A stretch of DNA of 26,631 bases, from positions 1-26,631 of the IMG/VR virus record IMGVR_UViG_3300037488_001862; one strand, written 5' to 3'. Both the position numbers and the translations under genes were made by a program. The DNA comes from a virus. Below, piece by piece: positions 3,417 through 21,149 of the stretch (position 1 is the stretch's first letter; each line of letters starts with the position of its first letter). The notes beneath the pieces were generated by a model. The model had not been told where the DNA came from. It worked only from the letters and a program-made list of their open reading frames with translations, and searched no databases.

Positions 3417-3765
3417 TTAATAATCCTAATTGTCTAAGTTTATTTCTACTCCAACCTAATGCAGCTTTACCACCCCATGCATCATACATAAGTTTACCAC
3501 AACCATCTCCATAAGATTTAGATGATACTAAATCACCTTCATGTCTACTTAAAAATGAATACATTCTTTGGATTGTATCAACTGATATAGGTTCTCCATT
3601 AGCTAATTGATTAGCACGTTGTTTTCCAACCGGAGTTCCACAACTACCCCAACCATTTTTATCTGCATACTCTAATGCTCTCTTTGCATTTCCTTTCACA
3701 CCATCAGGGTAATCAGAATAAGATTCAAATTTAATAATTTTACTATGTACTAAATTATGATTCAT
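3406..3765 (-). CDS. Conserved phage protein with two-Cys GWGSCGTPVGK-type domain, 119 aa
   Basis: After a short leader (residues 1-13) comes a domain I know from many phages but cannot assign a function: YPDGVKGNAKRALEYADKNG, then GWGSCGTPVGKQRANQLANG, then DTIQRMYSFLSRHE and a CGKLMYDAWGGKAALGWS ending. In other phages, as I recall, this domain occurs near or fused to head maturation proteases. Here it follows the XkdF-type protease with a 1-nt overlap (TAATG), so the two are translationally coupled. The leader matches that of the next gene. Confidence 0.75.
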   Translation of the reverse strand: MNHNLVHSKIIKFESYSDYPDGVKGNAKRALEYADKNGWGSCGTPVGKQRANQLANGEPISVDTIQRMYSFLSRHEGDLVSSKSYGDGCGKLMYDAWGGKAALGWSRNKLRQLGLLNES

Positions 3766-6571: not shown

Positions 6572-7171
6572 TTAAGGGTTCAATTGGAACAAAATCATAC
6601 ACTTATCGTTATAATGAGGGTATCCTTCCTGACAATCCTCATTTATTAGATATATAGGATTTAACTGAAATGGGGGTATCATAAGGTTAATACACTTCCA
6701 ACCACCATTCTCCACATCAGGGTTCATATCCCACTTCGTAAAGGATGTAGCTAGGAGGTATTTTGAACCACTCTCCTGACAGTTTCTCAATGCGAGTGAT
6801 ACATTATCATTACTTAGGTGTCCTAAGCAATCCCTAACGAATATAAGGTCCACTTTAGGTAGGGTATCATTTATCAAATCCAACACCCTAAAATCAACAT
6901 TTGTATAGTTTGCTTTATTTAATCCTATTAATGGTTCTACTATATCTGCTCCTATATAAGAAGCACCACATAAATCCACATCTTTCATCCAATTCCAATC
7001 TCCGCATGGGATATCTAAAATTGATTTAATACCAAACTTTTGTAATAATACAGGTAACTCTCTACGAATCACTTTTGTATTTTGCATTTCACTTCCACCA
7101 CCACTCACACTTTCAGGTGAGCACCATAGATTCTTTTCGTAAATCTCCGTAAACTTTTCTTTTACACTCAT
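6572..7171 (-). CDS. Class I SAM-dependent methyltransferase, 199 aa
   Basis: Probable Rossmann-fold methyltransferase. Motif I is SILDIPCGDWNWM (about residues 50-62), followed by the acidic strand end YIGADI (72-77), NVDFRVLDL (91-99) and PKVDLIFVRDCLGHLS (105-120), a pattern I know from a small-methyltransferase family in phages and bacteria. The substrate cannot be read from the sequence. The gene overlaps the glycosyltransferase gene by 4 nt (ATGA), which suggests they act together, perhaps on a glycan. A role in DNA modification is less likely, since no target recognition region is present. Confidence 0.8.
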   Translation of the reverse strand: MSVKEKFTEIYEKNLWCSPESVSGGGSEMQNTKVIRRELPVLLQKFGIKSILDIPCGDWNWMKDVDLCGASYIGADIVEPLIGLNKANYTNVDFRVLDLINDTLPKVDLIFVRDCLGHLSNDNVSLALRNCQESGSKYLLATSFTKWDMNPDVENGGWKCINLMIPPFQLNPIYLINEDCQEGYPHYNDKCMILFQLNP

Positions 7172-8103
7172 AACAATATTGATTTTTTTGCTGTTTCTTT
7201 AACCTGTTCCCAATAGTATGTATTTGCTTTATTCTCATCTACTATTAATTCATCACCATAAGGTAATCTATTAATGTAAGATGCTTTGTGAAACATACCG
7301 CTATTAGCATCCATTACTCCTGCATTATGTAATATCCAATATTTCTCAACTGAACTTATATTATCAGTACTCCACCCAAATGCCATTCTTTCATCTACTT
7401 GCGTTGAATGACCAAACAACCATGCGTTCCATAATAAACTCCACATACCTGCTGTCCACTTTTGTATTGGATAATCCCAATCTGCTTTTTGGATATGTAA
7501 ATGTTCTACTGAATTAAAGTAAGAATATAATCTAATTGCATCTTTTTCTACTTTATCCCAAAATTCAAATCCTTCTCCCTTAATTAAATACTGAGCACCT
7601 CCTGAATGATTATTCATTAGTTTAGGTATTTGTTTATCTAATCCAATTATATTACACATATCTTCATATATGTGATTTCCTTTTTGTTGTATGTAATCGT
7701 AATTAATGTATGAGTTTGTATCGCTCATATACCATGTATTGTTATTTCTTCCCCAATTTAATTCCGGCGGGCGTGTAAACACAATATCACTATCATGTAA
7801 AAATAACCACTCATCTTTTAAAGCAGGATATGCTTTAAGATGTTGTTTCATTAAGTTAAAATAAATTGATGGGATATAAGAATAATCTTCTCTAGTATCC
7901 TCATAGAAAAAGAAACGAACGGTATTGTAATGAGATTGAAGTTTCTTCCAATCATCAGGTACATGTCCATTGTTTATTGCACCCAATATATCAATCTGAT
8001 TTGGGTTTACTCCATGCTTAATGAAGTTATTAATTAGAACCTCAACTTGCCAAGTATAATATGAGTTAGCTGGTTGAGCACATATAAATCGTGTTTGTTG
8101 CAT
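7168..8103 (-). CDS. GT-A-type glycosyltransferase, 311 aa
   Basis: Probable nucleotide-sugar-dependent glycosyltransferase. The start FICAQPANSYYTWQVEVLINNF (from residue 6) and the strand-loop EWLFLHDSDIVFTRPPE with a DxD metal-binding motif (Asp104-Ser-Asp106) fit a GT-A fold. The later HSGGAQYLIKG and WSLLWNAWLFGH segments fit the acceptor half. It resembles the hydroxyproline or serine O-glycosyltransferase-like proteins seen in aquatic phages, but the acceptor is unknown. It is translationally coupled to the methyltransferase. Directly upstream is a tail protein with a Thr/Ser-rich linker, a possible O-glycosylation target (inference). Confidence 0.75.
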   Translation of the reverse strand: MQQTRFICAQPANSYYTWQVEVLINNFIKHGVNPNQIDILGAINNGHVPDDWKKLQSHYNTVRFFFYEDTREDYSYIPSIYFNLMKQHLKAYPALKDEWLFLHDSDIVFTRPPELNWGRNNNTWYMSDTNSYINYDYIQQKGNHIYEDMCNIIGLDKQIPKLMNNHSGGAQYLIKGEGFEFWDKVEKDAIRLYSYFNSVEHLHIQKADWDYPIQKWTAGMWSLLWNAWLFGHSTQVDERMAFGWSTDNISSVEKYWILHNAGVMDANSGMFHKASYINRLPYGDELIVDENKANTYYWEQVKETAKKSILL

Positions 8104-8115
8104 AACATTTTATTT

Positions 8116-9099
8116 TTATAAACAGCCTCCATCACAAGATGCAAAAGTATCTAAGTTTAATGTAGTTCCAATATCACCACTTACAACATTATAAACTGAT
8201 GTCATAATACTTGCTATTCCACCTGAATTACAATCAGCATCAGTTATAATACCTGTACAATATGCATTTGCGTAGTTATCAGGTTCTCCACATTGTTGGC
8301 AAATTACACCAACACTAATTGTATCACCTGGATATACAGCTCTAGTTCCATTTGAAGTAAAACCTCTAGTTTCAACAATTAAACCATTTACAAATAAATC
8401 AAAAGTTCCATTAGCTCCACCTGTTTCACTAAAGCTCCATGCTAAAGTAGCGTAACCAGCAGATGTAGTAGTTGTTGAAGTTGTAGTAGAAGTTGTAGTA
8501 GTACTGGTTGTGGAAGTTGTAGTAGGATAGGTTGTAGTACTTGTTGAGGTAGTAGTTGTTGTTGGTACAACATCTTGAGCAAACGGCAACGCATCAGGTA
8601 ATATAGGTCCAAGTAATTGTATTTGACATTCTCCATTCTTTAAATTAAAATCATTAATTGCACGGAGATGATAATAATTTCCACGCCATGAAACAACATC
8701 ATTTAATTCCATTTTAAAATAATCTGCTAATGGAATAATAGCTGATGCATTTATTAATCTAGTTCTAGGATTGTATAATAAATCTACATAATTTTCCCAA
8801 TATTTTGAATATAAAGATTCGGTTGGTGTTTCTCCATAAACTGCTTGCTCATTAAAAAATAATAATGAATCTGAATTGGTTGTTGGAAAAGAACCCGATA
8901 CAACATTGTAGTTATCAAAATATGGAAATGCGTTTTGTTCATAAGTAACTCCACCTACTGAAGATGAGCCACTTTCAATCCACCATGTTTGAGAATCAAT
9001 CATTCCATTATAAAACAATAATCTTGGTAGTACTCTACTTGGATTATAATTTTGGTCTGAAATGTAAGTTGGTATGTATATTGGTATAATTTGTGACAT
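8116..9099 (-). CDS. Tail/baseplate-associated protein with Thr/Ser linker and C-terminal decoration domain, 327 aa
   Basis: Residues 1-175 look like the end of a baseplate-type tail protein of Bacteroidota phages: YSKYWENYVDLLYNPRTRL, then MELNDVVSWRGNYYHLRAI, a pattern of a domain that elsewhere ends the large tail protein encoded just upstream. Residues 179-213 are an almost pure Thr/Ser linker. Residues 215-327 form a separate, probably beta-sandwich domain (TFDLFVNGLIVETRGFTSNG, AVYPGDTISVGVICQQCG) with six Cys. It seems to be an adhesin or decoration domain hung on the baseplate, perhaps for receptor or glycan binding. The stop is 12 nt before the glycosyltransferase start. Confidence 0.6.
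   Translation of the reverse strand: MSQIIPIYIPTYISDQNYNPSRVLPRLLFYNGMIDSQTWWIESGSSSVGGVTYEQNAFPYFDNYNVVSGSFPTTNSDSLLFFNEQAVYGETPTESLYSKYWENYVDLLYNPRTRLINASAIIPLADYFKMELNDVVSWRGNYYHLRAINDFNLKNGECQIQLLGPILPDALPFAQDVVPTTTTTSTSTTTYPTTTSTTSTTTTSTTTSTTTTSAGYATLAWSFSETGGANGTFDLFVNGLIVETRGFTSNGTRAVYPGDTISVGVICQQCGEPDNYANAYCTGIITDADCNSGGIASIMTSVYNVVSGDIGTTLNLDTFASCDGGCL
8461..8565 (-). repeat. Thr/Ser linker repeat in the baseplate-associated protein
   Basis: Encodes residues 179-213, nearly all Thr and Ser with one Tyr-Pro. On the minus strand it is a run of ACA/ACT/ACC/TCA-type codons in mixed order. The varied codons suggest selection on the protein rather than simple slippage of one triplet. Confidence 0.85.
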
Positions 9100-9110
9100 A
9101 TAATTTTATT

Positions 9111-11126
9111 TTAGCAGAAGAATCCTGTTCCGTATCCTATTTCACCTGTTACTGGATTTATATCATATACTTCATTACCACCACCATAGGTAAAGTATTT
9201 GTATCCTTTAATTGCTACTGCACCATATTGGTCATAGTATGCAATTTGTCCCGGTGATATCATACCATCAGCAGTGAACATTTCAATTTCAGTAGGACTA
9301 CCACATGCTGCACCTTGATAATTTAGTGATGTAAAGTGATAATTACTACCTGCAGAGTATTGTGTTATAGTTGGATTTAATCCACTAATAGAACCTGATA
9401 AACCTGTTCCTGCAATTCTAATTAAAGGTGAGCTTGCTAATGTTGTTTTAACTTCAAACTTACCCTGTGAAAAGAAATTGTTATTATCTACATAATATTG
9501 TTTACCATATTCTCTATTTGCAGCTTTACTAAATTGTTGTGAAATATAATCTTGGTCTAATGCATCTCCAAAGTTTAATTCGTTTACTGCTAAATTATTA
9601 GCTGGAATTACTTCTATCTTTTCATCTAAATTAATATAGTTGTTGAAGTTTTTAATTTCTCCTGATTGATACCAATTGTTAAATGATTCTACTATAAATT
9701 CATTTTGTTTAGTTTTAGATGGATATATTACTAATTGAAATTTCTTTTGTACACCTTTAAGAAAATCAACCATTTTAATACCTTGTGTACCATACGGCAT
9801 ATTAGCTGCTATATCCATTACTCTACCATCAGCTGCTTGTTTTACTTCTGTTATTTCTAAAAATGATTTAGTTGTTCCTAACGGGTCTAATGTTACTGTT
9901 GGTTGTACAGTTGGTAATGCATTATTAGGACTTTGTTTTATTTGAAAATAATAATTACCTACTGGTATATCATCAAGTTTAAATTCAGTTGCTAATTCAT
10001 AAGTTGTATTAATTGCATTAGCACCTCTACTTTGTTGTAGTTGGTCAAAGAAAAATATATAAGATTGTATTGCACGAGTTGAATAAGGTGTAGAACTGCC
10101 TGTTTCTATCATTCGTATTTGCCAAGTTCCATTTGCTGATAAAGTACCTGGCATATTATTTACTGAACAACTTACATTTATGTTTATGTTTAATTTACCT
10201 GATAGATTAGTTCTTTCTTTAACTTCGTATGCACCATTGTTATAAAAACCCTGAGCATCTGAAAATACGTTATACCAAGGTAATGTAGTAAATGTTCCAG
10301 CAGTTAAAACCTTATCAGTCATACCACTACCGGATACTGCACCTATTTTTATTTTACCATAGGTTTCCAAATCAACACCAGCAAATTCAGGATATTTTAA
10401 TGAGTTATTACAAACTAAATACACATCATCTAAAAATGGTTCATTAAAAAAAGAACCTGTATATGTGTACCCTGCATAATCAAATACCGCATCCCATACT
10501 TTTTTCATACGGATTGCTGGTTTGAAGTTTTGTACTGTTAATGCACCATTCTGGTCATCCATACCAAACAATTCGTATTGACCTGATGTAAATTTATATC
10601 CACTACCATAATCAGCTAAAGGATAAACGATATCACCATTAAATAAATTACCACCCCAACTTGCCGATATATTATTATAAGAAGCAGTGTGGTTATATAT
10701 GTTTAAGTTTGTTAAATCAGTTAAATATGCTTTATTAACTGTTCTAGCAAAAGAAGATACTGAACCATAGATACTTACTTCGTATGAATCAATAAATTTA
10801 TTATAAAGTACATTTACCTTATTTAATTGTAGATAACCCTGTGATAAATAAATACCATCAAAATCTAAATAAGCTGGAACTTTTATGTTGGTTGCAAATG
10901 TATCAGGATTTTCTATACTAATATCATAGCAGTGTTCAAAGAATGCATTATTCTTTTTACTTCCAGGTAATGTAATTTGTCTTGTGAAATCAGCAGGTAT
11001 TACACCTAAATCAAACAATCCAGTTACGTTATCAGATAAAAGTATTTCTTCATCTTCAAATACATCTAATTGCACACCATTTGCTACGAGTTTATATACG
11101 AAACCTTGAGTACTAGTTATTCCCAT
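9111..11126 (-). CDS. Large tail/baseplate structural protein, 671 aa
   Basis: Recognised by its start, a YKLVANGVQLDVFEDEEILL segment followed by DFTRQITLPGSKKNNAFFEHCYD, a pattern of large structural proteins in Bacteroidota phage tail modules. The middle contains beta-rich segments and MVDFLKGVQKKFQLVIYPS, which resembles baseplate hub-type domains. No enzyme motif is visible. It overlaps the upstream 384-aa gene by 1 nt and is followed after 11 nt by the 327-aa protein, so the three are probably assembled together at the tail tip. The exact role (hub, distal tail or sleeve) is not determined. Confidence 0.65.
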   Translation of the reverse strand: MGITSTQGFVYKLVANGVQLDVFEDEEILLSDNVTGLFDLGVIPADFTRQITLPGSKKNNAFFEHCYDISIENPDTFATNIKVPAYLDFDGIYLSQGYLQLNKVNVLYNKFIDSYEVSIYGSVSSFARTVNKAYLTDLTNLNIYNHTASYNNISASWGGNLFNGDIVYPLADYGSGYKFTSGQYELFGMDDQNGALTVQNFKPAIRMKKVWDAVFDYAGYTYTGSFFNEPFLDDVYLVCNNSLKYPEFAGVDLETYGKIKIGAVSGSGMTDKVLTAGTFTTLPWYNVFSDAQGFYNNGAYEVKERTNLSGKLNININVSCSVNNMPGTLSANGTWQIRMIETGSSTPYSTRAIQSYIFFFDQLQQSRGANAINTTYELATEFKLDDIPVGNYYFQIKQSPNNALPTVQPTVTLDPLGTTKSFLEITEVKQAADGRVMDIAANMPYGTQGIKMVDFLKGVQKKFQLVIYPSKTKQNEFIVESFNNWYQSGEIKNFNNYINLDEKIEVIPANNLAVNELNFGDALDQDYISQQFSKAANREYGKQYYVDNNNFFSQGKFEVKTTLASSPLIRIAGTGLSGSISGLNPTITQYSAGSNYHFTSLNYQGAACGSPTEIEMFTADGMISPGQIAYYDQYGAVAIKGYKYFTYGGGNEVYDINPVTGEIGYGTGFFC

Positions 11127-12280
11127 TATATGATTAATTTATATGCTTGTCCCCAATCAAAATCAAATTGATATTGAACTAACTTATCATTAACACCTGT
11201 TTTAAATACAACATTATTTGTTGTAATTGTAATAGGTCTTAAACTGTTTGGTTCATTATAAACCCAATATATCTCATCAGAAACTAACAATTGTTTAAAT
11301 ATATCATTATATGAATCAGGTAAATAATCAGTATTAACTGAAAGAGTTTGTTTACTATCTGATAAATAATTTAAAGTAGAGCTATCAGAATTTTGATAAC
11401 TTAAAGATGTACCCTGCCATGAACCTAATTGAGGTTGGTAGGTTCTCTTAGTTGATTGAAATCCTTGTCTATTAACTAAATAAAAATTAAACCAATCAAA
11501 TTGTCCAAATCTATTTTTCCATTTGATTCTAACATTAGGATACTTTTGAATACAATTCTTTTCGTATCTAATTGAAGTACCTAATTTAGTTCCACCATTA
11601 TAAGCTTGTATTTCAAAATAATCATTTGCGGTTGATATTGGAAATCCACTTTGATTTGGTGCTATTGGATATTGTTGTATCTGATTAGAAGAAGATATAG
11701 ATGATGATAATGTGAAATCAGCACTACCTAAGTTACCTGTATAAGTTAATTTAGTAGGTTGTGTTCCTCCTGCAGTACCAACATATACACCACTCACACC
11801 ATAATTTGAATCTAAAAAAGATTGTGTTACAGGTCCATCAGTTAATAATGGATAGTGAATTGATTTAGAAGGTAATTGTTGATTGATTGGTTCTTGAAAT
11901 ATACCATATCCATCTAATGCTTTATATACACCACTTAGTGCATGTGAGCTAGTTATAATATTTAAACCATCTTTATATTGCCAATAGAAATCTACTGCTA
12001 AATATTTTACATTTGAGGAGTTTTGTTGTGCTAAATCAGTTAATGTAGAATTCATAATCCTACTTACATCAAATATACCAACCAAACTTTCATTTGGATA
12101 TTTTACTAATGTGTATTCTGGTAGAGCTGGTTTGGTAGTTGAACCTGTCCAATAGTATAGTTCCCCATAATATTGAAAAGATGAACTATATACAACACCG
12201 CTGCTTTCTGCAACTGTAAAAATCATTGGGGATTGTGCCAATGATGCTGATGCTGGGTATTGAGTAATCGTTAGTGACAT
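11126..12280 (-). CDS. Tail structural protein, 384 aa
   Basis: Likely a tail tip or distal tail protein. It starts with MSLTITQYPASASLAQSPMIF and includes VRIKWKNRFGQFDWFNFYLV followed by TKRTYQPQLGSW, a combination I associate with conserved tail-module proteins of Bacteroidota phages found just before the large baseplate protein. It is beta-rich and Ser/Tyr-rich with no hydrophobic segment. A 50-nt AT-rich gap precedes it. Its stop overlaps the next start by 1 nt. The biochemical role is unknown. Confidence 0.6.
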   Translation of the reverse strand: MSLTITQYPASASLAQSPMIFTVAESSGVVYSSSFQYYGELYYWTGSTTKPALPEYTLVKYPNESLVGIFDVSRIMNSTLTDLAQQNSSNVKYLAVDFYWQYKDGLNIITSSHALSGVYKALDGYGIFQEPINQQLPSKSIHYPLLTDGPVTQSFLDSNYGVSGVYVGTAGGTQPTKLTYTGNLGSADFTLSSSISSSNQIQQYPIAPNQSGFPISTANDYFEIQAYNGGTKLGTSIRYEKNCIQKYPNVRIKWKNRFGQFDWFNFYLVNRQGFQSTKRTYQPQLGSWQGTSLSYQNSDSSTLNYLSDSKQTLSVNTDYLPDSYNDIFKQLLVSDEIYWVYNEPNSLRPITITTNNVVFKTGVNDKLVQYQFDFDWGQAYKLII

Positions 12281-12330
12281 AGTATCTATTTAATATTTAA
12301 CCACCAAACACTAAATTGTATTTGATGCTC

Positions 12331-12711
12331 TTATTTACCGAAAGATTGTCTAGTTTTAGAATATCCACCTTTTTGGAATGTATCCTGAAGGTTTTGTGCA
12401 ACTAATAACTGAACTTGAGCTTTTGAATAGTTTATTATCATATCCGTTAAACTTTTATCTTCACTTGCTCTTACCACAAAGTTAAATTCAGGTCTCTTAG
12501 ATAGAGCAATCCTTTTAACAACTTTTGGGGGAGTGTTCCACCATAATCCATAAGAAACCATATTAAGGTCTAATGTATATTTGAAATCACTAACTTTTTT
12601 ATATGAAGTAGCAATACTACTTCTCATTTTCCCTGTTTTATATGGAGAACCAGCTTTAGATAGTTTCTTATACTGCTCAGATATTTCTTTTAATGTTGGT
12701 ATTTTTGCCAT
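12331..12711 (-). CDS. HK97 gp10-like head-tail/neck protein, 126 aa
   Basis: A small basic protein with the PYKTGKMRSSIATSYKK motif (residues 23-39), characteristic in position and pattern of gp10-like minor tail or neck proteins, where an arginine-rich turn packs in the connector. Its place, after the tail-completion gene (2-nt gap) and before the tail proteins, fits. Confidence in the module is good, in the exact homology moderate. Confidence 0.55.
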   Translation of the reverse strand: MAKIPTLKEISEQYKKLSKAGSPYKTGKMRSSIATSYKKVSDFKYTLDLNMVSYGLWWNTPPKVVKRIALSKRPEFNFVVRASEDKSLTDMIINYSKAQVQLLVAQNLQDTFQKGGYSKTRQSFGK

Positions 12712-12713
12712 TA

Positions 12714-13232
12714 CTAACCTAATAGATTATATAAGCATCTAGGTCTATCGTTATGAGTTGTTACATCAAATGTTGCAACCCATCCAGCTAAACCATTTTC
12801 AAATGTATCTTTAAATGCTTCACAACTTACACCATCATTAATATCAAAATTATCTACTGCGTATTGAGTGTAAGATGTTAAATCATTAATAATAGAAAGA
12901 GTGTTAGCATGTATATCAACCAAATCATCAGTTCCGAAGAACGGAATAGTTTGTTTATTGTGTACACCAACCGATTCATTGTTTTTTAATTTTATTTTAT
13001 CAGCTACCGTTAATTGGCATGTATATGTTGTTACTGAATCTCCTAACACTGCATTTAGTATTAATATATTACCTAATGGATATGTTGGAAATTCACCTAC
13101 ATCTATATCATTAATATCACCCTGACTAACTGTTTCAATACCAGGATGATTTGTCATTATTGTTTTAAAATAGTTTAAAACATTGTAGTACAACGAATAG
13201 TTAGTACCTACTTTATTTACTACGTTTCCCAT
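12714..13232 (-). CDS. Tail-completion/terminator-like protein, 172 aa
   Basis: Probably caps the tail tube for joining to the head. The pattern YYNVLNYFKTIMTNHPGIETVSQGDINDIDVGEFPTYPL is shortened here to its key parts: helix 13-27, HPGIETVSQGD 29-39 and the FPTYPL turn near 48-53. The C-terminal CEAFKDTFENGLAGWVATFDV matches my recollection of a protein conserved between connector and tail genes in Bacteroidota phages. It starts 4 nt after the connector gene's stop. It may be the equivalent of lambda gpU or HK97 gp10-neighbour proteins. Confidence 0.6.
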   Translation of the reverse strand: MGNVVNKVGTNYSLYYNVLNYFKTIMTNHPGIETVSQGDINDIDVGEFPTYPLGNILILNAVLGDSVTTYTCQLTVADKIKLKNNESVGVHNKQTIPFFGTDDLVDIHANTLSIINDLTSYTQYAVDNFDINDGVSCEAFKDTFENGLAGWVATFDVTTHNDRPRCLYNLLG

Positions 13233-13236
13233 AATA

Positions 13237-13755
13237 TTATAATTGGATACCTCCGAAATATTGGTTCGTAAAATCAGGATAAACCTGTGTTAAGTTTCCA
13301 ACACTTTGAAGATATTGTGGTATTTGATTTGAATATGCTACTAAATAGTTTTGCATTCTAGTTGCATAAAAATCTGCACTATTTTCAGCTTTTGCTAATA
13401 GGTAATCAATCTCATTCTTAGACGGCGTTTCCCCCGTATCTGATTTGTGCTTGATTGCACCTTCACTTTTGAATTGAATGCCCGAAAATGGGATGTATTC
13501 AACGCAGGAGTACCATATTAAGGTTGATTTGATATGCTCATTAATTAAATCCTGATAATAAGCATCTAAAGTATTAATTGTACCATTAGTAATATGATAT
13601 TGTAGAAACTCAAACAACACAGTACCCAATAGATTAAGCATGTACTTATCTTGCGCAGTACGAACGAATGGTAGTAACCTATCAGCATCAATTGCACCCT
13701 GTAAAGGTGAGTTTTTGATTATATCGTTTCTAGTTATAAAAAGTGCGTAGCTCAT
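13237..13755 (-). CDS. Head-tail connector (adaptor) protein, DUF6712-like, 172 aa
   Basis: A mostly helical protein next to the portal gene, as connector or adaptor proteins (gp6-like) usually are. Key segments: RNDIIKNSPLQGAIDADRLL (9-28), AQDKYMLNLLGTVLFEF (34-50) and ESTLIWYSCVEY-like helix near 75-86 (actual residues KSTLIWYSCVEY). It would sit under the portal and receive the tail. It follows the portal gene by 2 nt and precedes the tail-completion gene by 4 nt. Confidence 0.65.
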   Translation of the reverse strand: MSYALFITRNDIIKNSPLQGAIDADRLLPFVRTAQDKYMLNLLGTVLFEFLQYHITNGTINTLDAYYQDLINEHIKSTLIWYSCVEYIPFSGIQFKSEGAIKHKSDTGETPSKNEIDYLLAKAENSADFYATRMQNYLVAYSNQIPQYLQSVGNLTQVYPDFTNQYFGGIQL

Positions 13756-13757
13756 TG

Positions 13758-15011
13758 TTATTTTTGTTTAAATATTTCAAATTCCTTTGTGAAGTTTGGA
13801 TTACTTTGTTGTATAACTACATCTTCTTCAGTAGTTGCAGGGTTTTCACCTTGCTCATTAATATCATCTTCAACTTCATCAATAGTTTGTCCAGTTTCAT
13901 CCGCAGTTTCTGAAAGAATTGCTAATGGTGTTAATTGTTCAAAGTATAATTCAGTATTATCATAACCTGATAGTTCAAACACATCAGTTAATGCGTTTAT
14001 CACTAAATTTTGGAATGGATTGATTGTCATTGTTTGCATAATTGAATATGCAGTTTTCATTTCTTCTGATTGAGAACTAAATCCATTAGCTACAGTACGA
14101 ATACCAAATAATAATGGAGATGTGATTCTATGTCCTACTAATATTCTATCTTGCGCATAATCGGCAACATATTTGTATTTCTCATGCAGATTATCAGTAG
14201 TAATCGTTTCAATTGTTGGTTTTGATTCAACGTTATCGTTAAATGATATCATAAATCTACCAGCATTACGAGTTCCTGTAAACTTATTCTCAATTAAACT
14301 CTCAATTGTTTGTCTTTCTTCAGGTGCCGGTACTCCACTATTCATATTAATCATTACTAATGGTAAAAAACCATTCTCAATGTTGTTCATGTGTAAGTTA
14401 GATAACTCAGCTTCTACAAATGAGAATTGTAATGCACTCATCCAATCAGGTAAACTATAATAGTATCTACCTGGTGTATAGTTTTTAACATAAAGTAATT
14501 CACACTTTTCATTTGATGTACCAAACGCAGGTATTAGTTTTTTATACTTTTGTGCTTTTTGGTCACTCCAATCAGTGCAATAGTAATAGTTTTGTACCTT
14601 TGGGTTATCATATATCTTCTCAGCACGAATTGTTTGTACTGGGATGTGATATATTTTAATTATTTTAGTATGCGAATCATCCCAATATACTTGAAATGAT
14701 GAGTTACCATATAATTTTAAATCAAAGATACCTCTCTTAAGTTCTTCCTGTGGAAGTATGCTATCTAATGTAGTTTGGAATGCCGTATCTTTTGAATACA
14801 AACCCTTTCCAAATATTAAATCAGATATACCCTCTACGCAAGCTGCGTTTGTTGTTGATGTAGTAAAACTATCAGTTACATTTGAGAAATAATCATCAGG
14901 ACCTATTATACCAACAGGTACCCATGTATATCTTGTTTTTGTATCCTCTCTTACGATTGGTATTTCTTGTTGTGTTAAATTCACAACGGAAAAGTTTTGT
15001 TTTCCTTTCAT
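13758..15011 (-). CDS. Portal protein, 417 aa
   Basis: Likely portal, the dodecameric channel through which DNA enters and leaves the capsid. Segments fit portals of Bacteroidota phages: DLIFGKGLYSKD and LKRGIFDLKLYGNSSFQVYW in the clip/wing half, LSNLHMNNIENGFLPLVMINM, then DRILVGHRITSPLLFGIR followed by a helical crown (SSQSEEMKTAYSIMQ). The acidic Glu-rich tail (residues 380-405) is also typical. A TTG at 15020 is in frame, but it would overlap the upstream gene; ATG 15011, 1 nt after that gene's stop, is preferred. Portals usually precede the capsid gene; here it lies downstream. Confidence 0.8.
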   Translation of the reverse strand: MKGKQNFSVVNLTQQEIPIVREDTKTRYTWVPVGIIGPDDYFSNVTDSFTTSTTNAACVEGISDLIFGKGLYSKDTAFQTTLDSILPQEELKRGIFDLKLYGNSSFQVYWDDSHTKIIKIYHIPVQTIRAEKIYDNPKVQNYYYCTDWSDQKAQKYKKLIPAFGTSNEKCELLYVKNYTPGRYYYSLPDWMSALQFSFVEAELSNLHMNNIENGFLPLVMINMNSGVPAPEERQTIESLIENKFTGTRNAGRFMISFNDNVESKPTIETITTDNLHEKYKYVADYAQDRILVGHRITSPLLFGIRTVANGFSSQSEEMKTAYSIMQTMTINPFQNLVINALTDVFELSGYDNTELYFEQLTPLAILSETADETGQTIDEVEDDINEQGENPATTEEDVVIQQSNPNFTKEFEIFKQK

Positions 15012-15012
15012 A

Positions 15013-15387
15013 TTAATCAATTATTATATATTCGTTATCAGTTACGTTACTTACATACACTTCTTCAACACCTAATTGGTTTACATACGCAGGTTTGTTT
15101 ATTGATTGAGATGCAAATACTGAAATAGAACCATGCCAAATAGAGGATGTTCCATCAGTTATATATGCTCTATACTGCTCACCTATAATAGATTGTGATA
15201 TAGATGCTGTCCAATTAAGGATACCCTCGTATGCATTATAAGTGTAAGGTCTTCCCGATGCACTAATAGAAGATGATGTATTCACTAATGTGTACATATC
15301 TTGCAATTGTAATACAAGGTTAGAAGAACCGGTTGGTTCTACTCTAATTGAGTAGTTATTACTTCCTGATATATAGTATGCTAACAT
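15013..15387 (-). CDS. Small beta-rich virion protein, 124 aa
   Basis: It begins MLAYYISGSNNYSIRVEP, is Ser/Tyr-rich and looks like an all-beta Ig-like domain (YTYNAYEGILNWTASIS; EQYRAYITDGTSSIWHGSISVF). Similar small proteins occur in structural modules of Bacteroidota phages, so a tail or head decoration role is plausible but not shown. It is the first gene after the terminator at 15455-15484 and ends 1 nt before the portal ATG. The 68-nt gap upstream must hold a promoter if that terminator is efficient; I see no exact late box there. Confidence 0.55.
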   Translation of the reverse strand: MLAYYISGSNNYSIRVEPTGSSNLVLQLQDMYTLVNTSSSISASGRPYTYNAYEGILNWTASISQSIIGEQYRAYITDGTSSIWHGSISVFASQSINKPAYVNQLGVEEVYVSNVTDNEYIIID

Positions 15388-15454
15388 TAAGTTGTATTTA
15401 CGTTGAATTATCTATATATTTAACAAACTTATCTCACCTTATAGTGATACGCAC

Positions 15455-15484
15455 AAAAAAAAGGGATAGTTTTACCTATCCCTT
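15455..15484 (-). terminator. Rho-independent terminator after the capsid gene group
   Basis: On the minus strand AAGGGATAG (15484-15476) pairs perfectly with CTATCCCTT (15469-15461) around a 6-nt loop and runs into eight consecutive T (15462-15455). This 9-bp hairpin with a U-tract is a strong intrinsic terminator, 24 nt after the stop of the 184-aa tail-tube-like gene. It separates scaffold, capsid and tube-like genes from the portal and tail genes. Confidence 0.85.
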
Positions 15485-15508
15485 CTAATATTTTAAGCGA
15501 AATACCGA

Positions 15509-16063
15509 TTAGTTAGCTGCTCCGTTTACGATTGTAGGAGGATTAGTAACTGAACCAAATGGATTACCGAATGTTGAACCTGATATAAATGATGCAGGGT
15601 ATTGCTCCATACCATTGAACGTTATTGAATAACCATAAAGGTCACCTAATGCTGCTCCTGTTTGTAGAGTACCTGCAGTTACATCTGCTCCCTCTCTTTG
15701 TCCTACCAATAGAGTATCTCCATTCATAGTGTGTACAAAGATTTGAGGTCTTCCATACGCCATTAACTTTAATTGCGTTGTCATCTCATTTGTTAATTTC
15801 TTCAAGTTTAACACTAACTCCTGATTAAAGAAGGTAGTACCATTTTCTCTTGATGAATTAACTGTTTCAGTATATGCGCTAGTTCCTTTAAGTTCGTAGT
15901 AGTAAGCTGTAAGTCCTGCAGGTAATGATTCTATTAAATCATCACTTACACCGTTTGTTGCGGTAGCAAGTGAACCGGTCCAGTTTACAAAGTAAACTCC
16001 AGCTAATCCACCTACGGATTCCTTACAAACTTCCATACGTCCTTTATCTAGTGTACATGGCAT
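15509..16063 (-). CDS. Tail-tube-like / major structural protein, 184 aa
   Basis: Probably an abundant virion protein, likely the tail tube. It opens CTLDKGRMEVCKESVGGLAGVYFVNW, here cited as two parts: Cys-containing start (residues 3-14) and SVGGLAGVYFVNW (16-28). It continues with FNQELVLNLKKLTNEMTTQL and AYGRPQIFVHTMNGDTLLVG, then YGYSITFNGMEQYPA, a beta-rich pattern that I know from a conserved family next to capsid genes in Bacteroidota phages. It follows the capsid gene across a hairpin (16107-16137) and is closed by a terminator, suggesting separate control of its mRNA level. A head decoration role is the alternative. Confidence 0.55.
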   Translation of the reverse strand: MPCTLDKGRMEVCKESVGGLAGVYFVNWTGSLATATNGVSDDLIESLPAGLTAYYYELKGTSAYTETVNSSRENGTTFFNQELVLNLKKLTNEMTTQLKLMAYGRPQIFVHTMNGDTLLVGQREGADVTAGTLQTGAALGDLYGYSITFNGMEQYPASFISGSTFGNPFGSVTNPPTIVNGAAN

Positions 16064-16106
16064 AATTTTATTTTTTAATTGTTTCTTCTTTTTTTAATTT
16101 GAGTAA

Positions 16107-16137
16107 AGGGAGATATAGTTTTAACTTTAATCTCCCT
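16107..16137 (-). terminator. Hairpin between capsid and tail-tube-like genes, partial terminator or mRNA stabiliser
   Basis: AGGGAGAT (minus strand 16137-16130) pairs perfectly with ATCTCCCT (16114-16107) around a 15-nt loop; flanking GAGTAA/TTACTC can extend it across a bulge. An A/T-rich stretch follows, but no continuous U-tract. It begins 14 nt after the capsid stop. Likely effects are partial termination or protection of the capsid mRNA 3' end. Confidence 0.5.
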
Positions 16138-16150
16138 ATTACTTACTCAA

Positions 16151-17104
16151 TTAATAATTTTTGTAGATAGCGATGTCAGAACCGATACCATATTGTGTAG
16201 ATGCGGTGTATCTCATGATAATTCTGAAATTTTGAGAACCATCTAAGTCTTCCATATCTAACACTTTTACAAGGTTGTAATCACTCATCAAACCTGTTCC
16301 GAAGAATAAGTTAGATTTTTGTGCAGCAACCATAGCAGAAGATGCTAAACCTGGACACCATGCTAATTCAATACCATTGAAGTTCATTGGTTTCTCTCCA
16401 ACATTCATTAAATTGTTATAACCGTTAGCACCTTGCGCACCACCAGCTAATGCTTGTTGGTATGCTTTTGCCACGTTAGTTGGTACATAGATTAATACAT
16501 CCTCTTTACCATAAATAGTTTGAGGGATTGCATCAACTAAAGAGTTTAATCTAGCTAATACGTTTGTTGAATCAATTGAACCAGAAAGTGATGCAGTGAT
16601 AGGAGCGTTTACTCCACCTGCTACTACTGATGATGATAATGCGTTGTAGATACCACCGAATTGTCCGTTAGTAGCTGCAACACCTTGCCAAATTGAGATT
16701 TCAGTTGCTTCTGCAACTTTTCCTCCAACGTAGCTCACCAAAAAATCATTGAATGATGCAGGGATAGTGTCAAATGCACTATAACCTAACTGCAATGCTT
16801 CCCATGAATTTACGAATTCAGCTTTACATAATTGTAAGTTTACTTGCAATTCTTTAGGTGTAAGTATTCTCTCAGTAAGAGCTACTGTACCTGAAGTTGC
16901 GAAATCACACGCTGCATCAGTTATGATAGAATCAACCGCAATCTTAGAGATTACTGATTTGTACTTCACATTTGGCATGATAGTGATATAATTTTTATCT
17001 AGCGTTTGTGCAGATAAAAGGGCGCTCGCGATATATTTTCCCGCAAATTCCCCGGCGTACGTGCTAGTAACACTAGGTTGTACGAAGTTTTGATTTTTTC
17101 TCAT
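16151..17104 (-). CDS. Major capsid protein (HK97 fold), 317 aa
   Basis: Forms the icosahedral head. I recognise a capsid protein family common in Bacteroidota and marine uncultured phages: YAGEFAGKYIASALLSAQTL (residues 16-35), ILTPKELQVNLQLCKAEFVNSWEALQLG, YVGGKVAEATEISIWQGV (129-146), IPQTIYGKEDVLIYVPTNVAKAY and a C-terminal FFGTGLMSDYNLVKVLDMEDLDGSQNF region. The last positions (YGIGSDIAIY) complete the P-domain strand. There is no obvious long cleavable N-arm, in line with a separate scaffold gene upstream. A TATAAATA box ends 23 nt before the ATG. The start has an A-rich leader without a Shine-Dalgarno sequence. Confidence 0.9.
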   Translation of the reverse strand: MRKNQNFVQPSVTSTYAGEFAGKYIASALLSAQTLDKNYITIMPNVKYKSVISKIAVDSIITDAACDFATSGTVALTERILTPKELQVNLQLCKAEFVNSWEALQLGYSAFDTIPASFNDFLVSYVGGKVAEATEISIWQGVAATNGQFGGIYNALSSSVVAGGVNAPITASLSGSIDSTNVLARLNSLVDAIPQTIYGKEDVLIYVPTNVAKAYQQALAGGAQGANGYNNLMNVGEKPMNFNGIELAWCPGLASSAMVAAQKSNLFFGTGLMSDYNLVKVLDMEDLDGSQNFRIIMRYTASTQYGIGSDIAIYKNY

Positions 17105-17126
17105 TTTTTAATAAGTTTTTTGTTAA

Positions 17127-17789
17127 TTATTTATATAATCTAGATAGGAAAGAATTCTGCGATGAAGCTTCCACTTTCTTACTAAATTTATTTTTTGTTG
17201 GTTTTGCTGAAGGATTCTCCTCTATTGGAGCTCCATCTAACTTTGGAAGTTCTTCTTCCTCATCACTCATTTGAACATCTTCTTCTTGCTTAGGATACAT
17301 TCCATCCTGCATAGATTGGATTTTCTTTTCCATCTCATCAATACGATATTGTAATTTTTCCATTACTTTACCCATATCTTCAGTGATAGGTTCTGCAGTT
17401 TCATCTTCTTCATCAGTAGATTCACCACCGATATCTTCACCAGCGATTGATTCCATATCTTCAGGTAATTTTTCAACAGGTACTTCATCTGATTTTTGCT
17501 CAGTTGGTTCATCACCTACATCTGCTCTATCAACTATCTTACCTTCTTCAGTAGTTACTTTAATTCTAACTTCATTACCTTCTGAATCTTTAAGAACAAT
17601 TTCATGTTCTCCGTTTGGTGCTGCACTTTTAGTACCATCTTCTGATACTACTGCAACATCCTCACCTACATCAAAGGTAGGTGATTCTAAAATCGTACCA
17701 TCTGCTAATTTAGCGTATGCTAAAGTAACTTCTTCTTTTGATAAAGAAAGAGTTGCTATGATTTTGTTTAATACTTGCTTTGCGTTCAT
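17127..17789 (-). CDS. Putative scaffold / prohead core protein, 220 aa
   Basis: Lies 22 nt upstream of the capsid gene, the usual scaffold position. The N-terminus has a small beta domain pattern (AYAKLADGTILESPTFDVGED, 24-44; APNGEHEIVLKDSEGNE, 57-73) seen in presumed scaffold proteins of related phages. Residues 90-137 are highly acidic and disordered, 138-165 form a coiled coil (KVMEKLQYRIDEMEKKIQSM) and the tail is basic (KNKFSKKVEASS), fitting capsid binding. The XkdF-type protease encoded at 3765 would degrade it during maturation. The identification rests on position and composition. Confidence 0.65.
   Translation of the reverse strand: MNAKQVLNKIIATLSLSKEEVTLAYAKLADGTILESPTFDVGEDVAVVSEDGTKSAAPNGEHEIVLKDSEGNEVRIKVTTEEGKIVDRADVGDEPTEQKSDEVPVEKLPEDMESIAGEDIGGESTDEEDETAEPITEDMGKVMEKLQYRIDEMEKKIQSMQDGMYPKQEEDVQMSDEEEELPKLDGAPIEENPSAKPTKNKFSKKVEASSQNSFLSRLYK
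17128..17135 (-). promoter_or_regulatory. Candidate T4-like late promoter TATAAATA before the capsid gene
   Basis: The minus strand reads TATAAATA from 17135 to 17128, over the last codons of the scaffold gene, ending 23 nt before the capsid ATG. It exactly matches the T4 late consensus. In T4 the capsid gene 23 also has a strong late promoter immediately upstream. Transcription would start near 17121, giving a leader of about 17 nt. Confidence 0.5.
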
Positions 17790-17842
17790 ATTTTTGTGTA
17801 TTTAATTATTTAACAACTATTACGTTGTTTGTAGTTATTTTT

Positions 17843-18058
17843 TTATTGAGGTGAAAGAAATACATCGTTTACCTCATCGTATGTATCTCCGATAGATGCA
17901 AACTTACCTCTAATGTTTCCATTGTAAGAAGTTTGAACCCACTTTCCAGTGAATCCCATATCATTAAGTAATTCCTCTCCTCTATGTTCATCTTCGTTAG
18001 CAACTACAACCACCCAAGTTACTATATTGTATGCATCTATTTTTGCGAAATGTGCCAT
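17843..18058 (-). CDS. Small conserved phage protein (MAHFAKID family), 71 aa
   Basis: I recognise this as a short family widespread in aquatic phages, including cyanophages: start MAHFAKIDAYNIVTWVVVV, end WVQTSYNGNIRGKFASIGDTYD. Its function is not established. It usually lies among tail fibre genes or near structural genes, as here between the Gly-rich adhesin and the scaffold. The N-terminal strand is hydrophobic but too short and polar at its ends for a convincing membrane segment. Confidence 0.7.
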   Translation of the reverse strand: MAHFAKIDAYNIVTWVVVVANEDEHRGEELLNDMGFTGKWVQTSYNGNIRGKFASIGDTYDEVNDVFLSPQ

Positions 18059-18069
18059 AATTTATTATT

Positions 18070-18915
18070 TTAATTCCAAGTAAATGTACCTGATGCGTTA
18101 AATTGATGATAAGTGTATCCGCCTGATTGAGTTATATCTCCTCCAGTTGCATTTGGTGTACCAGGGTATCTAAAAATACAAACACCTGAACCTCCAGCAC
18201 CTGAAGTTGTTTCTCCTAATCTAGTAGCTCCACCACCATTACCTGTGTTAGGTGCTCCTGATGGACCTGGAGTAGTAAAACCAGTTAATCCACCTTTAGA
18301 CCTTACAGTTGCACTATCAAACCAAACTTGCGATACTCCACCACCAACTCCACCTAATCCTCTATAAGTTCCTGATGCAGCTGCTCCAACATTACCATAT
18401 AGTAATCCTTGAGATACTCCACCACCTAAACCTTGTGAATTATCTATCTGACCTCCACCACCACCTGAACCTCCAGTTCCGCCGGTTTGTCCACCTCCAC
18501 CACCGTTACCACCACCATCTGCTACTACTAATGTTGCACCACGTTGTACTAATGAATTGTTACCTGAACCACCAGGTCCACCTCCACCACTAAATCCATC
18601 TCCACCTGCTCCAATAACAATATTGTATGCTCCAGAGAATACATTTAATGAACCGGTCCAATAAGCACCAGCTCCACCTGCTCCACCACCACCTGCAGCA
18701 GATGTACCTGCTCCACCAGCTCCACCAACTAATAGATACTCTACTGATGTAGGTGCTACAGTTGTTGTAGTTGAAGTTGTAGTTGTTGTAGAAGTAGTTG
18801 TAGTACTTGTTGTAGTTGAAGTTGTAGTACTTGTTGTAGTAGGTCCTATTTGTGGGCCTGCTCCAATGTTACTTCCTCCTAGTGCACCTACAATATTTAA
18901 GTTTAGATTTAACAT
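18070..18915 (-). CDS. Gly-rich tail adhesin with Thr/Ser linker, 281 aa
   Basis: Likely receptor-binding tip. Residues 1-24 form a short anchor (MLNLNLNIVGALGGSN), 25-54 a Thr/Ser linker, and 58-281 a Gly-rich domain beginning VEYLLVGGAGGAGTSAAGG with many GGxGG runs, akin to the polyglycine-sandwich folds of phage tip adhesins (T4-like gp38 type). The last residues (YTYHQFNASGTFTWN) are a common ending of Gly-rich phage adhesins. Glycine loops in such proteins vary rapidly to change host range. It is one of several candidate adhesins encoded in a row. Confidence 0.65.
   Translation of the reverse strand: MLNLNLNIVGALGGSNIGAGPQIGPTTTSTTTSTTTSTTTTSTTTTTSTTTTVAPTSVEYLLVGGAGGAGTSAAGGGGAGGAGAYWTGSLNVFSGAYNIVIGAGGDGFSGGGGPGGSGNNSLVQRGATLVVADGGGNGGGGGQTGGTGGSGGGGGQIDNSQGLGGGVSQGLLYGNVGAAASGTYRGLGGVGGGVSQVWFDSATVRSKGGLTGFTTPGPSGAPNTGNGGGATRLGETTSGAGGSGVCIFRYPGTPNATGGDITQSGGYTYHQFNASGTFTWN
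18754..18843 (-). repeat. Thr/Ser linker repeat in the Gly-rich adhesin
   Basis: Encodes residues 25-54, a TTTSTTT-type run separating the short N-terminal anchor from the Gly-rich domain. The DNA is a mixed series of Thr and Ser codons like those at 8461, 19811, 20177 and 20489. Confidence 0.85.
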
Positions 18916-18920
18916 CTATT

Positions 18921-19193
18921 TTATTTTAATGCGATAATGTTAGTTGCGGTTGATGATGAAGATACTGCTGATATCAAACCTGGGATAAATCCACTAGCTG
19001 ATATAAAAGTTAGTACGCTTGCATCGTATGTTCTTACAACTAAATTACCTTGTCCACCTACATATAAACCTCCAGCTACAAAACCGAATGAACCGGTTTC
19101 TGAGTTGAAAGTTGTTCCTGTTGAAGGAGTTACTGCTGCACCACCAACGAATTGAGGATTAGCAATGTATGAACTTTGAGTTTCTAATTTCAT
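18921..19193 (-). CDS. Spike-base-like protein, 90 aa
   Basis: The sequence fits the small spike base protein family (RCAP_Rcc01079-like): GGLYVGGQGNLVVRTYD (about residues 41-57), TFISASGFIPG (62-72) and the ending SSTATNIIALK. Such proteins are thought to form a small beta-structured base on the virion; the exact role is little known. It sits between the DUF1566 and Gly-rich adhesin genes, fitting a platform for adhesins (inference). It begins 44 nt after the DUF1566 stop with an A-rich leader. Confidence 0.7.
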   Translation of the reverse strand: MKLETQSSYIANPQFVGGAAVTPSTGTTFNSETGSFGFVAGGLYVGGQGNLVVRTYDASVLTFISASGFIPGLISAVSSSSTATNIIALK

Positions 19194-19237
19194 AATATTC
19201 TTTTTTATTTTAACAATTAAGTTTCCTTTTATAGTGA

Positions 19238-19804
19238 TTAAAAGCTTCTTACCGCTCTTACATAATTTTGTTCAAATGGTAATCCTGTTTTATAACTATC
19301 TCTTGTATCTCCACTAGACATGTTTATTGATGCTGCATAAAACTCTTTTGAGTTAAACCCAACTGCCTGATTTGATGACCAGTAAAACTGTCCGCTAAGA
19401 CCAGGAACATAACTTCTATTTGTATATAATAATTGTAATTCATTATATGAAGGTAAGTACCAATCGTTATATCCATCATTTGAATAATCAGAACATAATT
19501 TAGCAGCTATACCAGCTTGCGTACATTCGGTTATAATTTGAGTTGTATTTGATTGTCCACTTCCATATCCCAAACTTAAACCTGATATAAACACTCCTCC
19601 ACATCCCCATGAAGTATTTCCAGCTATGTCAGAAATACTAGCTATTAATCCTGTTTGTGCATTAGGTACTACATAAAATACAACGCCGCCACCATAGTAA
19701 TCACCCAATTCTATTGGTTTTTGTTGAATAACATTTTGTATATTAACATCACCTAATTGTATTCCTCTATAATCCAATGGTGTATTTCCTAAATAAACTT
19801 GCAT
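19238..19804 (-). CDS. DUF1566 (Lcl C-terminal, C-type-lectin-like) adhesin, 188 aa
   Basis: Residues about 33-188 match DUF1566: GGGVVFYVVPNAQTGLIAS, NDWYLPSYNELQLLYTNR (113-130), FYWSSNQ (140-146) and the ending YVRAVRSF. This domain has a C-type-lectin-like fold and serves as a ligand-binding domain, in some phages the variable target of diversity-generating retroelements. Residues 1-25 (MQVYLGNTPLDYRGIQLGDV...) look like a short tail-attachment segment. The ATG lies 3 nt after the stop of the upstream Thr/Ser-rich protein and in the same frame, so readthrough would fuse the two. Confidence 0.75.
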   Translation of the reverse strand: MQVYLGNTPLDYRGIQLGDVNIQNVIQQKPIELGDYYGGGVVFYVVPNAQTGLIASISDIAGNTSWGCGGVFISGLSLGYGSGQSNTTQIITECTQAGIAAKLCSDYSNDGYNDWYLPSYNELQLLYTNRSYVPGLSGQFYWSSNQAVGFNSKEFYAASINMSSGDTRDSYKTGLPFEQNYVRAVRSF

Positions 19805-19807
19805 ATC

Positions 19808-20398
19808 TTATGGCATTGTTGTTGTTGATGTACTGCTTGTTGTTGATGTAGGGAACGTTGTTGTACTGCTACTAGTTGTAGAAGTAGGGAATGTTGTTGT
19901 ACTAGTACTGCTAGTTGAAGTTGGCATTGTAGTGCTACTTGTTGAAGTAGTAGTTGTTGTTGTTCCTCCACATGCACTACAATCTCCATAAGATGTCATC
20001 ATAGTAGAGAACGTTCCACCCATTGCTGAAGGAGTTATTGTCCAACAAGCATTTGTATCATACGGTGCACCAACTGCAAAGAACTTATAAACTCCTACTA
20101 ATGATAAATTAGTACTAGTAGTAATAGTATAAGAAGAACCCCCAGCACAATTGTTTATTACATAATTGTAATTAGCTGAAGTTGTAGTACTAGTTGAACT
20201 TGTTGTGCTACTTGTTGTAGTTGTTGGAGTAGTTGTTGTACTTGTTGAAGTAGTACTGCTCGTAGTTGTTGGAGAAGCAGTTGTAGAGGTACTAGTTGTT
20301 GTTGTAGTACTCATTGCGTTTATAGCATCAATAGCCGCATTTATCTTTGCTCTTGCTACTGCTCCGCTATCTCCGTTATTTACTGTTTGTAATGGCAT
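19808..20398 (-). CDS. Thr/Ser-rich mucin-like protein ending in a linker, 196 aa
   Basis: Residues 1-29 form a helical segment (SGAVARAKINAAIDAINAM) that probably anchors or trimerises. Residues 30-74 are a Thr/Ser linker. Residues 75-145 form a small domain with four Cys (VINNCAGG, NACWTIT, YGDCSACGG). Residues 146-196 are a second linker built from FPTSTTSS-type repeats. The protein then stops with nothing attached, although the linkers elsewhere carry a domain. The DUF1566 gene follows in frame after TAA GAT, so it may be a split fusion. Dense Thr/Ser suggests O-glycosylation, not demonstrated. Its domain has no family I know. Confidence 0.65.
   Translation of the reverse strand: MPLQTVNNGDSGAVARAKINAAIDAINAMSTTTTTSTSTTASPTTTSSTTSTSTTTTPTTTTSSTTSSTSTTTSANYNYVINNCAGGSSYTITTSTNLSLVGVYKFFAVGAPYDTNACWTITPSAMGGTFSTMMTSYGDCSACGGTTTTTTSTSSTTMPTSTSSTSTTTFPTSTTSSSTTTFPTSTTSSTSTTTMP
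19811..19963 (-). repeat. C-terminal Thr/Ser/Pro tandem repeat
   Basis: Encodes residues 146-196, with imperfect repeats of about a dozen residues around FPTSTTSS and TTTFP. The DNA repeats are close enough to allow recombination or slippage and therefore variation in length. Confidence 0.8.
20177..20311 (-). repeat. First Thr/Ser linker of the 196-aa protein
   Basis: Encodes residues 30-74, nearly pure Thr/Ser with occasional Pro or Ala, between the helical anchor and the four-Cys domain. Confidence 0.85.
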
Positions 20399-20410
20399 AA
20401 TATATTATTT

Positions 20411-20668
20411 TTAATCTATCCAATATGATGAATCCATCCACACACCATAATCATTCCATTTAGCAGATGCTAAAATCCAAGGATATGGAAATGTAGTGGT
20501 TGTTGTAGTTGAAGTTGTTGTTGTTGTTGTTGTAAGAGGTATAGTTGTAGTTGAAGTAGTTGTACTTAAAGATACAAACACAGGTGCTACATCTTCGGTA
20601 TTACCTAAGCTGCTATTACCTACTGACATGCTACCTATTACTTTTCCACCTACTTTAATTTGATACAT
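20411..20668 (-). CDS. Small Thr-rich linker protein, 85 aa
   Basis: An N-terminal beta segment (MYQIKVGGKVIGSMSVGNSS) resembles short fibre-attachment sequences. Residues 35-60 are a Thr/Ser linker and the final 25 residues are aromatic (WILASAKWNDYGVWMDSSYW). The layout of anchor, linker and terminal module is the same as in three other proteins of the window, with a peptide-sized module here. Its start overlaps the end of the sulfotransferase-like gene by 14 nt. Aromatic Trp/Tyr residues could bind sugar, a guess only. Confidence 0.6.
   Translation of the reverse strand: MYQIKVGGKVIGSMSVGNSSLGNTEDVAPVFVSLSTTTSTTTIPLTTTTTTTSTTTTTTFPYPWILASAKWNDYGVWMDSSYWID
20489..20566 (-). repeat. Thr/Ser linker repeat in the 85-aa protein
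   Basis: Encodes residues 35-60, including a run of seven Thr. The minus-strand codons are mixed ACA, ACT and TCA triplets. Confidence 0.85.
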
Positions 20669-21149
20669 AATCTTCGTTTCTTAATGTTACCCCACCATCA
20701 TCTGACATTCGTTTTAAGGGTTGTTCCCAATCGTGCTTAAGTTCTAATCCAAACTTAATTGATATCCTCTCTAATAGGTTATAATAGTGGTTTACACACC
20801 ATTCATGCTCTACTATCAATACCTTACTACTATCAAACTCTTTTGCTCTATCAATATAGTTTTGATGTGCTTCTCTATCAATCAATAAATTCATCCCACC
20901 TCTTTTCAAACTTTTCCTCCACTCATCAAACTCTTTATATATAACAATTATACCTTGCGAAGTATCTAACATAGGATAATTGTGCTTCTCCAATGTTATA
21001 TGAGGACCACTTCCCTTTACATTATTTACCACACTTATATTATGGTAATCAACATTATAAAAGTTATTTCGTAATGTCCATTCCATAAAGTTGGTACCTG
21101 AACGAGGTAACCCATATACCTGTATCTTATTGTGGTAATTCAAACTCAC
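20655..21149 (-). CDS. Sulfotransferase-like P-loop protein, 164 aa
   Basis: Residues 8-25 (KIQVYGLPRSGTNFMEWT) carry the PRSGTN loop typical of the PAPS 5'-phosphosulfate-binding motif of sulfotransferases. Residues 67-82 (IVIYKEFDEWRKSLKR) fit the 3'-phosphate-binding segment with its conserved Ser. It is shorter than most sulfotransferases (250-300 aa), so it may be a minimal or divergent form. Acceptor unknown; a glycan or Thr/Ser-rich adhesin encoded nearby is conceivable. The start is GTG, overlapping the upstream 64-aa gene by 23 nt; a TTG two codons later is an alternative. The next ATG falls after the P-loop, so it is too late. Confidence 0.65.
   Translation of the reverse strand: MSLNYHNKIQVYGLPRSGTNFMEWTLRNNFYNVDYHNISVVNNVKGSGPHITLEKHNYPMLDTSQGIIVIYKEFDEWRKSLKRGGMNLLIDREAHQNYIDRAKEFDSSKVLIVEHEWCVNHYYNLLERISIKFGLELKHDWEQPLKRMSDDGGVTLRNEDYVSN

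Follow-up and report, generated by a model that had tools for sequence, protein, structure and literature searches.

A phage glycosyltransferase family paired with threonine-rich tracts of virion proteins

The phage protein family phrog_4417, which is listed as being of unknown function, is probably a protein O-glycosyltransferase acting on Thr/Ser tracts of virion proteins, judging from the family match, the fold of a structure model, the conserved residues, and the adjacency, co-occurrence and co-loss of gene and tract. The pairing of this gene with Thr runs in unrelated phages suggests that these phages put sugars on their own particles. The window, i.e., the whole stretch of DNA analyzed here, is a 26.6 kb record of an uncultured phage (IMGVR_UViG_3300037488_001862; 26,631 nucleotides). 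Its late genes, on the minus strand, encode a portal, a probable coat protein (MCP; phrog_11320, a family of unknown function), tail proteins and a tape measure. An XkdF-like putative prohead protease (3765-4568; Pfam Peptidase_S78_2) is encoded beyond the tape measure gene, apart from the portal and coat genes.

The glycosyltransferase and the Thr/Ser tracts of the window

The glycosyltransferase (GT) gene (7168-8103, minus strand) starts 12 nt past a gene for a tail-module protein with a Thr/Ser linker (8116-9099, minus strand), and its ORF overlaps that of a methyltransferase by 4 nt, so that the coupling of the two enzymes directly after a linker protein, as read in the initial annotation, is borne out. 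The protein matches the phrog_4417 profile over its full length (5.3e-67, residues 5-304 of 311), and 74 records of isolates carry the family, the dairy phages 1706 and bIL285 among them. No glycosyltransferase model of Pfam or NCBIfam was matched, and the enzyme is not filed under the GT8 sequence family because Pfam holds no glycosyltransferase model that matches it; searches of PDB sequences, with the single protein and with a profile, returned no glycosyltransferase and no relevant match. The AlphaFold model built from a 41-sequence alignment (pLDDT 92, pTM 0.90) has a GT-A fold, in agreement with the earlier assignment, and its top solved match is glycogenin (Z 15.4 over 226 residues at 3.4 Å), followed by LgtC (Z 15.1), the Skp1 galactosyltransferase and UGGT (14.7), LARGE1 (14.0), and GlyE (13.8). 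At D104, D106, Q214, H259, G262, and K273, at least 97% of 47 dereplicated phrog_4417 members have the same residue; D104 and D106 form the DxD metal-binding motif, and the conserved residues are probably equivalent to the DxD, Q, and H..G..K of GT8 enzymes.

A scan of genome contigs with the GT alignment found one chromosomal relative, in Enterococcus innesii (L163:5834-8325). This relative has in-frame stops, lies after a 33-aa ORF ending in PTPTATPEP and is followed by PqqD-like, signal-peptidase-like and ABC-transporter-like ORFs; the region looks like a modified-peptide cluster. In three loci (L020:9309-9989; also L023 and L025), the phrog_4417 gene is separated from the linker gene by a second glycosyltransferase-like ORF.

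Long Thr/Ser linkers had been noted in four proteins of the window (at residues 179-213, 25-54, 30-74 and 146-196, and 35-60), and the tracts as recomputed, all on the minus strand, lie close to these positions. The tail-module protein directly upstream of the GT carries 25 T and 7 S among the 34 residues 180-213 (8461-8562). A Gly-rich tail-fiber-like protein (18070-18915; Pfam Gly_rich_2, 2.4e-10) has an N-terminal tract at residues 26-52 (18760-18840), a 196-aa protein (19808-20398) has two tracts, at residues 30-74 (20177-20311) and at about residues 145-195 (about 19817-19921), and an 85-aa protein (20411-20668) has one at about residues 35-59. Upstream of the linker genes, a large fiber-like protein (22119-25472) with collagen-like GTSG repeats (Pfam Collagen, 2.2e-9) and Phage_tail_C repeats is encoded. 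With a background of 17% T+S, taken from the other late proteins of the window, about 4e-7 windows with 17 Thr/Ser in 20 residues would be expected by chance, and no tract was seen in 1290 random viral genes; chance low complexity was therefore rejected as the origin of the tracts. DNA slippage repeats are an unlikely origin as well, and the tracts look selected at the protein level, because their codons are mixed (ACA, ACT, ACC, ACG, AGT, AGC, and TCN). A point against the proposed role of the GT is that only one of the four linker genes adjoins it.

Pairing of the enzyme with Thr tracts across phages

The GT was gathered from 80 viral, 17 isolate and 13 intact Lactobacillales prophage loci, which were dereplicated at 90% GT identity, and a tract was defined as a Thr/Ser run of at least 7. 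This measure overlooks short ORFs (L436) and tracts with interruptions, for instance TTTTTTQATTTTTS (L421). It gave a tract for the gene immediately upstream of the GT in 39 of 55 loci, for the downstream gene in none of 54, and for 34 of 682 other genes (Fisher p about 8e-32; relatedness is not corrected for in this or the later statistics). Inspection by eye showed a Thr-rich tract beside or near the GT in all 17 isolates, and all 13 intact prophage loci have one just upstream of it. As a point against the pairing, no tract is visible near the GT in a few loci, although several of these records contain runs of poly-Thr codons at another place.

In the isolates, the tracts are mostly C-terminal tails of the major capsid protein (MCP) or the major tail protein (MTP), as in the MTP of phiFL1A (...GTTTTTSTTTTTTSSTTTTTTTQASSK) and the MCP of 4995_1 (...GTTTTTTKPTTTTTTTQA). 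The exceptions are Lactobacillus phage 521B, with a TTVKPTTVAP repeat, bIL285, with a Thr tail on the MTP only, Chryseobacterium phage MA9V-3, in which the tract is an internal linker, and Enterococcus phage 9183, in which the tract lies out of frame after the MCP (L420:3767-3886), suggesting a frameshift. The initial annotation had placed a possible virion glycosylation system on adhesin stalks; the GT does track the tracts, but the acceptor appears broader than stalks, being in isolates mostly the C-terminal tail of MCP or MTP.

The MTP of Staphylococcus phage SA2 and of the Arcanobacterium-assigned phage TPWB06 ends in TTTTTTTTP at CCC TAA (L168:5640-5725 and L425:3690-3760), and the +1 frame leads on into a second, longer Thr-rich stretch; a programmed +1 frameshift that lengthens the tail is possible in both. 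In Lactobacillus phage LpeD, the Thr/Ser tract protein adjoining the GT (orf68; L424:3590-3994) is annotated as a herpesvirus-like "glycoprotein," presumably because of low-complexity similarity.

It could be argued that the GT merely extends a sugar first put on the tract by a host enzyme, as its fold neighbors LgtC and the glucoside-Skp1 galactosyltransferase act on existing sugars. We consider this very unlikely; GT and tract are paired in phages whose hosts belong to different phyla (Firmicutes and Chryseobacterium), so that a priming enzyme common to these hosts is less likely, and in most of the isolates examined the annotation shows no other glycosyltransferase gene beside the GT.

The reverse searches started from the tracts. 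A blind scan for 12 ACN codons found a phrog_4417-like GT in 13 of 120 viral loci, vs. none of 120 for a random 14-mer (p 0.0002), a whole-record search found the GT in 7 of 50 poly-Thr records and in none of 50 controls, and the GT was among the next two genes for 11 of 96 poly-Thr genes. Because the GT was found in a minority of poly-Thr loci, most poly-Thr phages lack phrog_4417, which counts against the proposal. Three poly-Thr loci without it (L216, L219, and L250) have a Pfam Glycos_transf_2 gene downstream of the poly-Thr gene, and other glycosyltransferase families may serve Thr tracts such as these.

Enzyme and tract are also lost together. Among seven phages with a homologous tail protein (four streptococcal phages and three of Coetzeevirus) that were absent from the GT matches listed, none has a Thr tail on the MCP or MTP and none has the GT at the locus, while Coetzeevirus R3.3 has the GT and Thr tails on both proteins. 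Within the clade of the window, five relatives with about 77-81% MCP identity (L123, L131, L136, L142, and L160) have no GT in the whole record; their linker protein ends near ...IQLLGPILEGSLN, just short of the tract position, where that of the window runs on into VVPTTTTTSTST, its gene is followed by that of the tape measure, and no tract was found elsewhere in their examined DNA. The eight GT-bearing relatives with tracts vs. the five without either (p 0.0008) possibly reflect one evolutionary event.

An alternative is that the GT acts on another acceptor (for example teichoic acid, a glycan of the host surface or the DNA of the phage), the Thr tracts being mere spacers in a late operon, and known phage glycosyltransferases do act on DNA and on glycans of the host surface (reviewed in PMC12619734). 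We regard this as improbable. The tract occurs in the upstream gene and never in the downstream one, unrelated proteins lose their tails at the same residue when the GT is missing, and the upstream protein differs between phages (capsid, tail tube or fiber); because these proteins are unrelated, the feature that they share is the tract. The asymmetry between upstream and downstream genes and the co-loss also led us to reject coincidence within a late operon as the main cause of the pairing. The correlation of enzymes with linkers, which had been put forward as a check, is thus strong for the GT, with tract adjacency in unrelated phages, GT-less relatives without tracts, and joint gain and loss, and we keep to the reading of phrog_4417 as an O-glycosyltransferase of virion Thr/Ser tracts.

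The methyltransferase and sulfotransferase-like genes

The methyltransferase (6572-7171, minus strand), a proposed sugar methyltransferase, matches the phrog_3382 profile over its full length (1e-52, residues 6-195 of 199). In the METHYLTRANSFERASE survey, phrog_3382 was found in 9 and a Pfam methyltransferase match in 11 of 28 genes next to or near a GT, figures that are not a rate because these genes were not randomly chosen. The isolate matches to the protein come from three kinds of phage, and every context opened was a glycosyltransferase cluster. In Synechococcus phage ACG-2014f, the homolog lies in a cluster with epimerases, an aminotransferase and an annotated sulfotransferase; in mycobacteriophage Ariel, the relative lies in a capsid and glycosyltransferase gene neighborhood (order MCP-GT-GT-kinase-MT); and in prophiGD91-2, it is again part of a glycosyltransferase cluster. 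The expected correlation with linkers is therefore partial for this enzyme, which stands beside only some GTs but whose isolate homologs lie inside glycosyltransferase clusters.

The sulfotransferase-like protein (20655-21149, minus strand), a rare accessory gene, overlaps the 85-aa linker gene by 14 nt, as had been noted, but its assignment as a sulfotransferase is weak (Pfam Sulfotransfer_3, E=0.021, below the cut-off; low-confidence model). That the virion glycans of the window phage are also sulfated by this protein is a tentative idea that we hold to be rather doubtful. The best structural matches of its model are SULT and tyrosylprotein sulfotransferases (best Z 9.7, to SULT1C3), its P-loop (5'-PSB) is invariant in its one detectable viral relative (L082), and the sugar cluster of the Synechococcus phage, with its methyltransferase homolog, includes an annotated galactose-3-O-sulfotransferase gene. 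Against sulfation, besides the Pfam match below the cut-off, stand the model confidence (pLDDT 65), a Foldseek search with nothing at E<0.001, and the single relative. No relative was found among isolate phages, and many linker-bearing relatives of the window lack the gene; a correlation with linkers did not hold for this enzyme.

Proposed mechanism and comparison with known systems

We propose that the substrates of phrog_4417 are Thr/Ser-rich tracts that form part of virion proteins, and that it modifies them in the cytoplasm of the host. In the window phage, the acceptor would be the tract of the upstream tail-module protein and, by extension, the tracts of the tail-fiber-region proteins; in other phages, it would mostly be the C-terminal Thr tails of the major capsid and major tail proteins. 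Judging from the fold, the reaction would require a nucleotide sugar and a metal bound by the DxD motif, and the sugar, once added, is probably methylated by the phrog_3382 methyltransferase, whose gene is co-transcribed; for this system we infer catalysis, the use of Thr/Ser as the acceptor, the identity of the sugar and its methylation. The biological role may be shielding, stalk stiffness or adhesion, a guess guided by the mycobacteriophages. On balance we slightly favor the wider view that phrog_4417 defines a widespread portable module, consisting of a dedicated Thr-tract O-glycosyltransferase, a Thr tag that marks a virion protein for coating, be it capsid, tail tube or adhesin, and optional sugar-modifying genes.

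The proposal gives a testable function to a phage family labeled as being of unknown function, and it would allow the virion proteins and residues that are glycosylated to be predicted from sequence alone. If it is true, the glycosylation of virions is not peculiar to mycobacteriophages; it recurs in phages whose hosts are lactic acid bacteria, enterococci, staphylococci or Bacteroidota. The portable module would be a phage counterpart of mucin-type glycosylation, found in phages of both Firmicutes and Bacteroidota. With so simple an acceptor as a Thr tract, the enzyme could also serve as a glycosylation tool.

In streptococcal serine-rich-repeat adhesins, a Ser-rich stalk is glycosylated by GT-A enzymes encoded in a multi-enzyme cluster. 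The GT has a GT-A fold related to that of streptococcal GlyE (PDB 5gvv and 5gvw, among the matches of the model), while it differs from that system, a bacterial adhesin with a multi-enzyme cluster, in having no sequence-detectable homology. The GT likewise shares the GT-A fold (Z 14-15) and the DxD motif with glycogenin, LgtC, other GT8 enzymes and UGGT (GT24), and its conserved Q and H..G..K appear equivalent to those of GT8 enzymes, but it is only ~10% identical to these proteins and has no Pfam match.

The closest known phage systems are those of the mycobacteriophages Che8, Corndog, and Myrna, in which, according to the sections consulted of PMC12363180 and PMC12619734, phage-encoded glycosyltransferases modify the capsid and tail tube (Freeman et al., 2023), with glycans reported at the C-termini of capsid and tail-tube proteins. 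A likeness to these is that a relative of the window methyltransferase lies beside capsid and glycosyltransferase genes in Ariel. Unlike the mycobacteriophage enzymes, phrog_4417 has hosts among Firmicutes and Bacteroidota and shows no detectable sequence relation to them; no mycobacteriophage was among the matches listed for the GT (tblastn, 50,697 phage records, 1e-5). The Thr/Ser tract as a recognizable partner of the enzyme also sets the present system apart from the mycobacteriophage system as those sections describe it, and the phrog_4417 family was not described in the open-license literature on phage poly-Thr or Thr-rich glycosylation. Virion glycosylation itself is thus known from mycobacteriophages, and what appears to be new here is an orphan enzyme family together with its Thr-tract partner.
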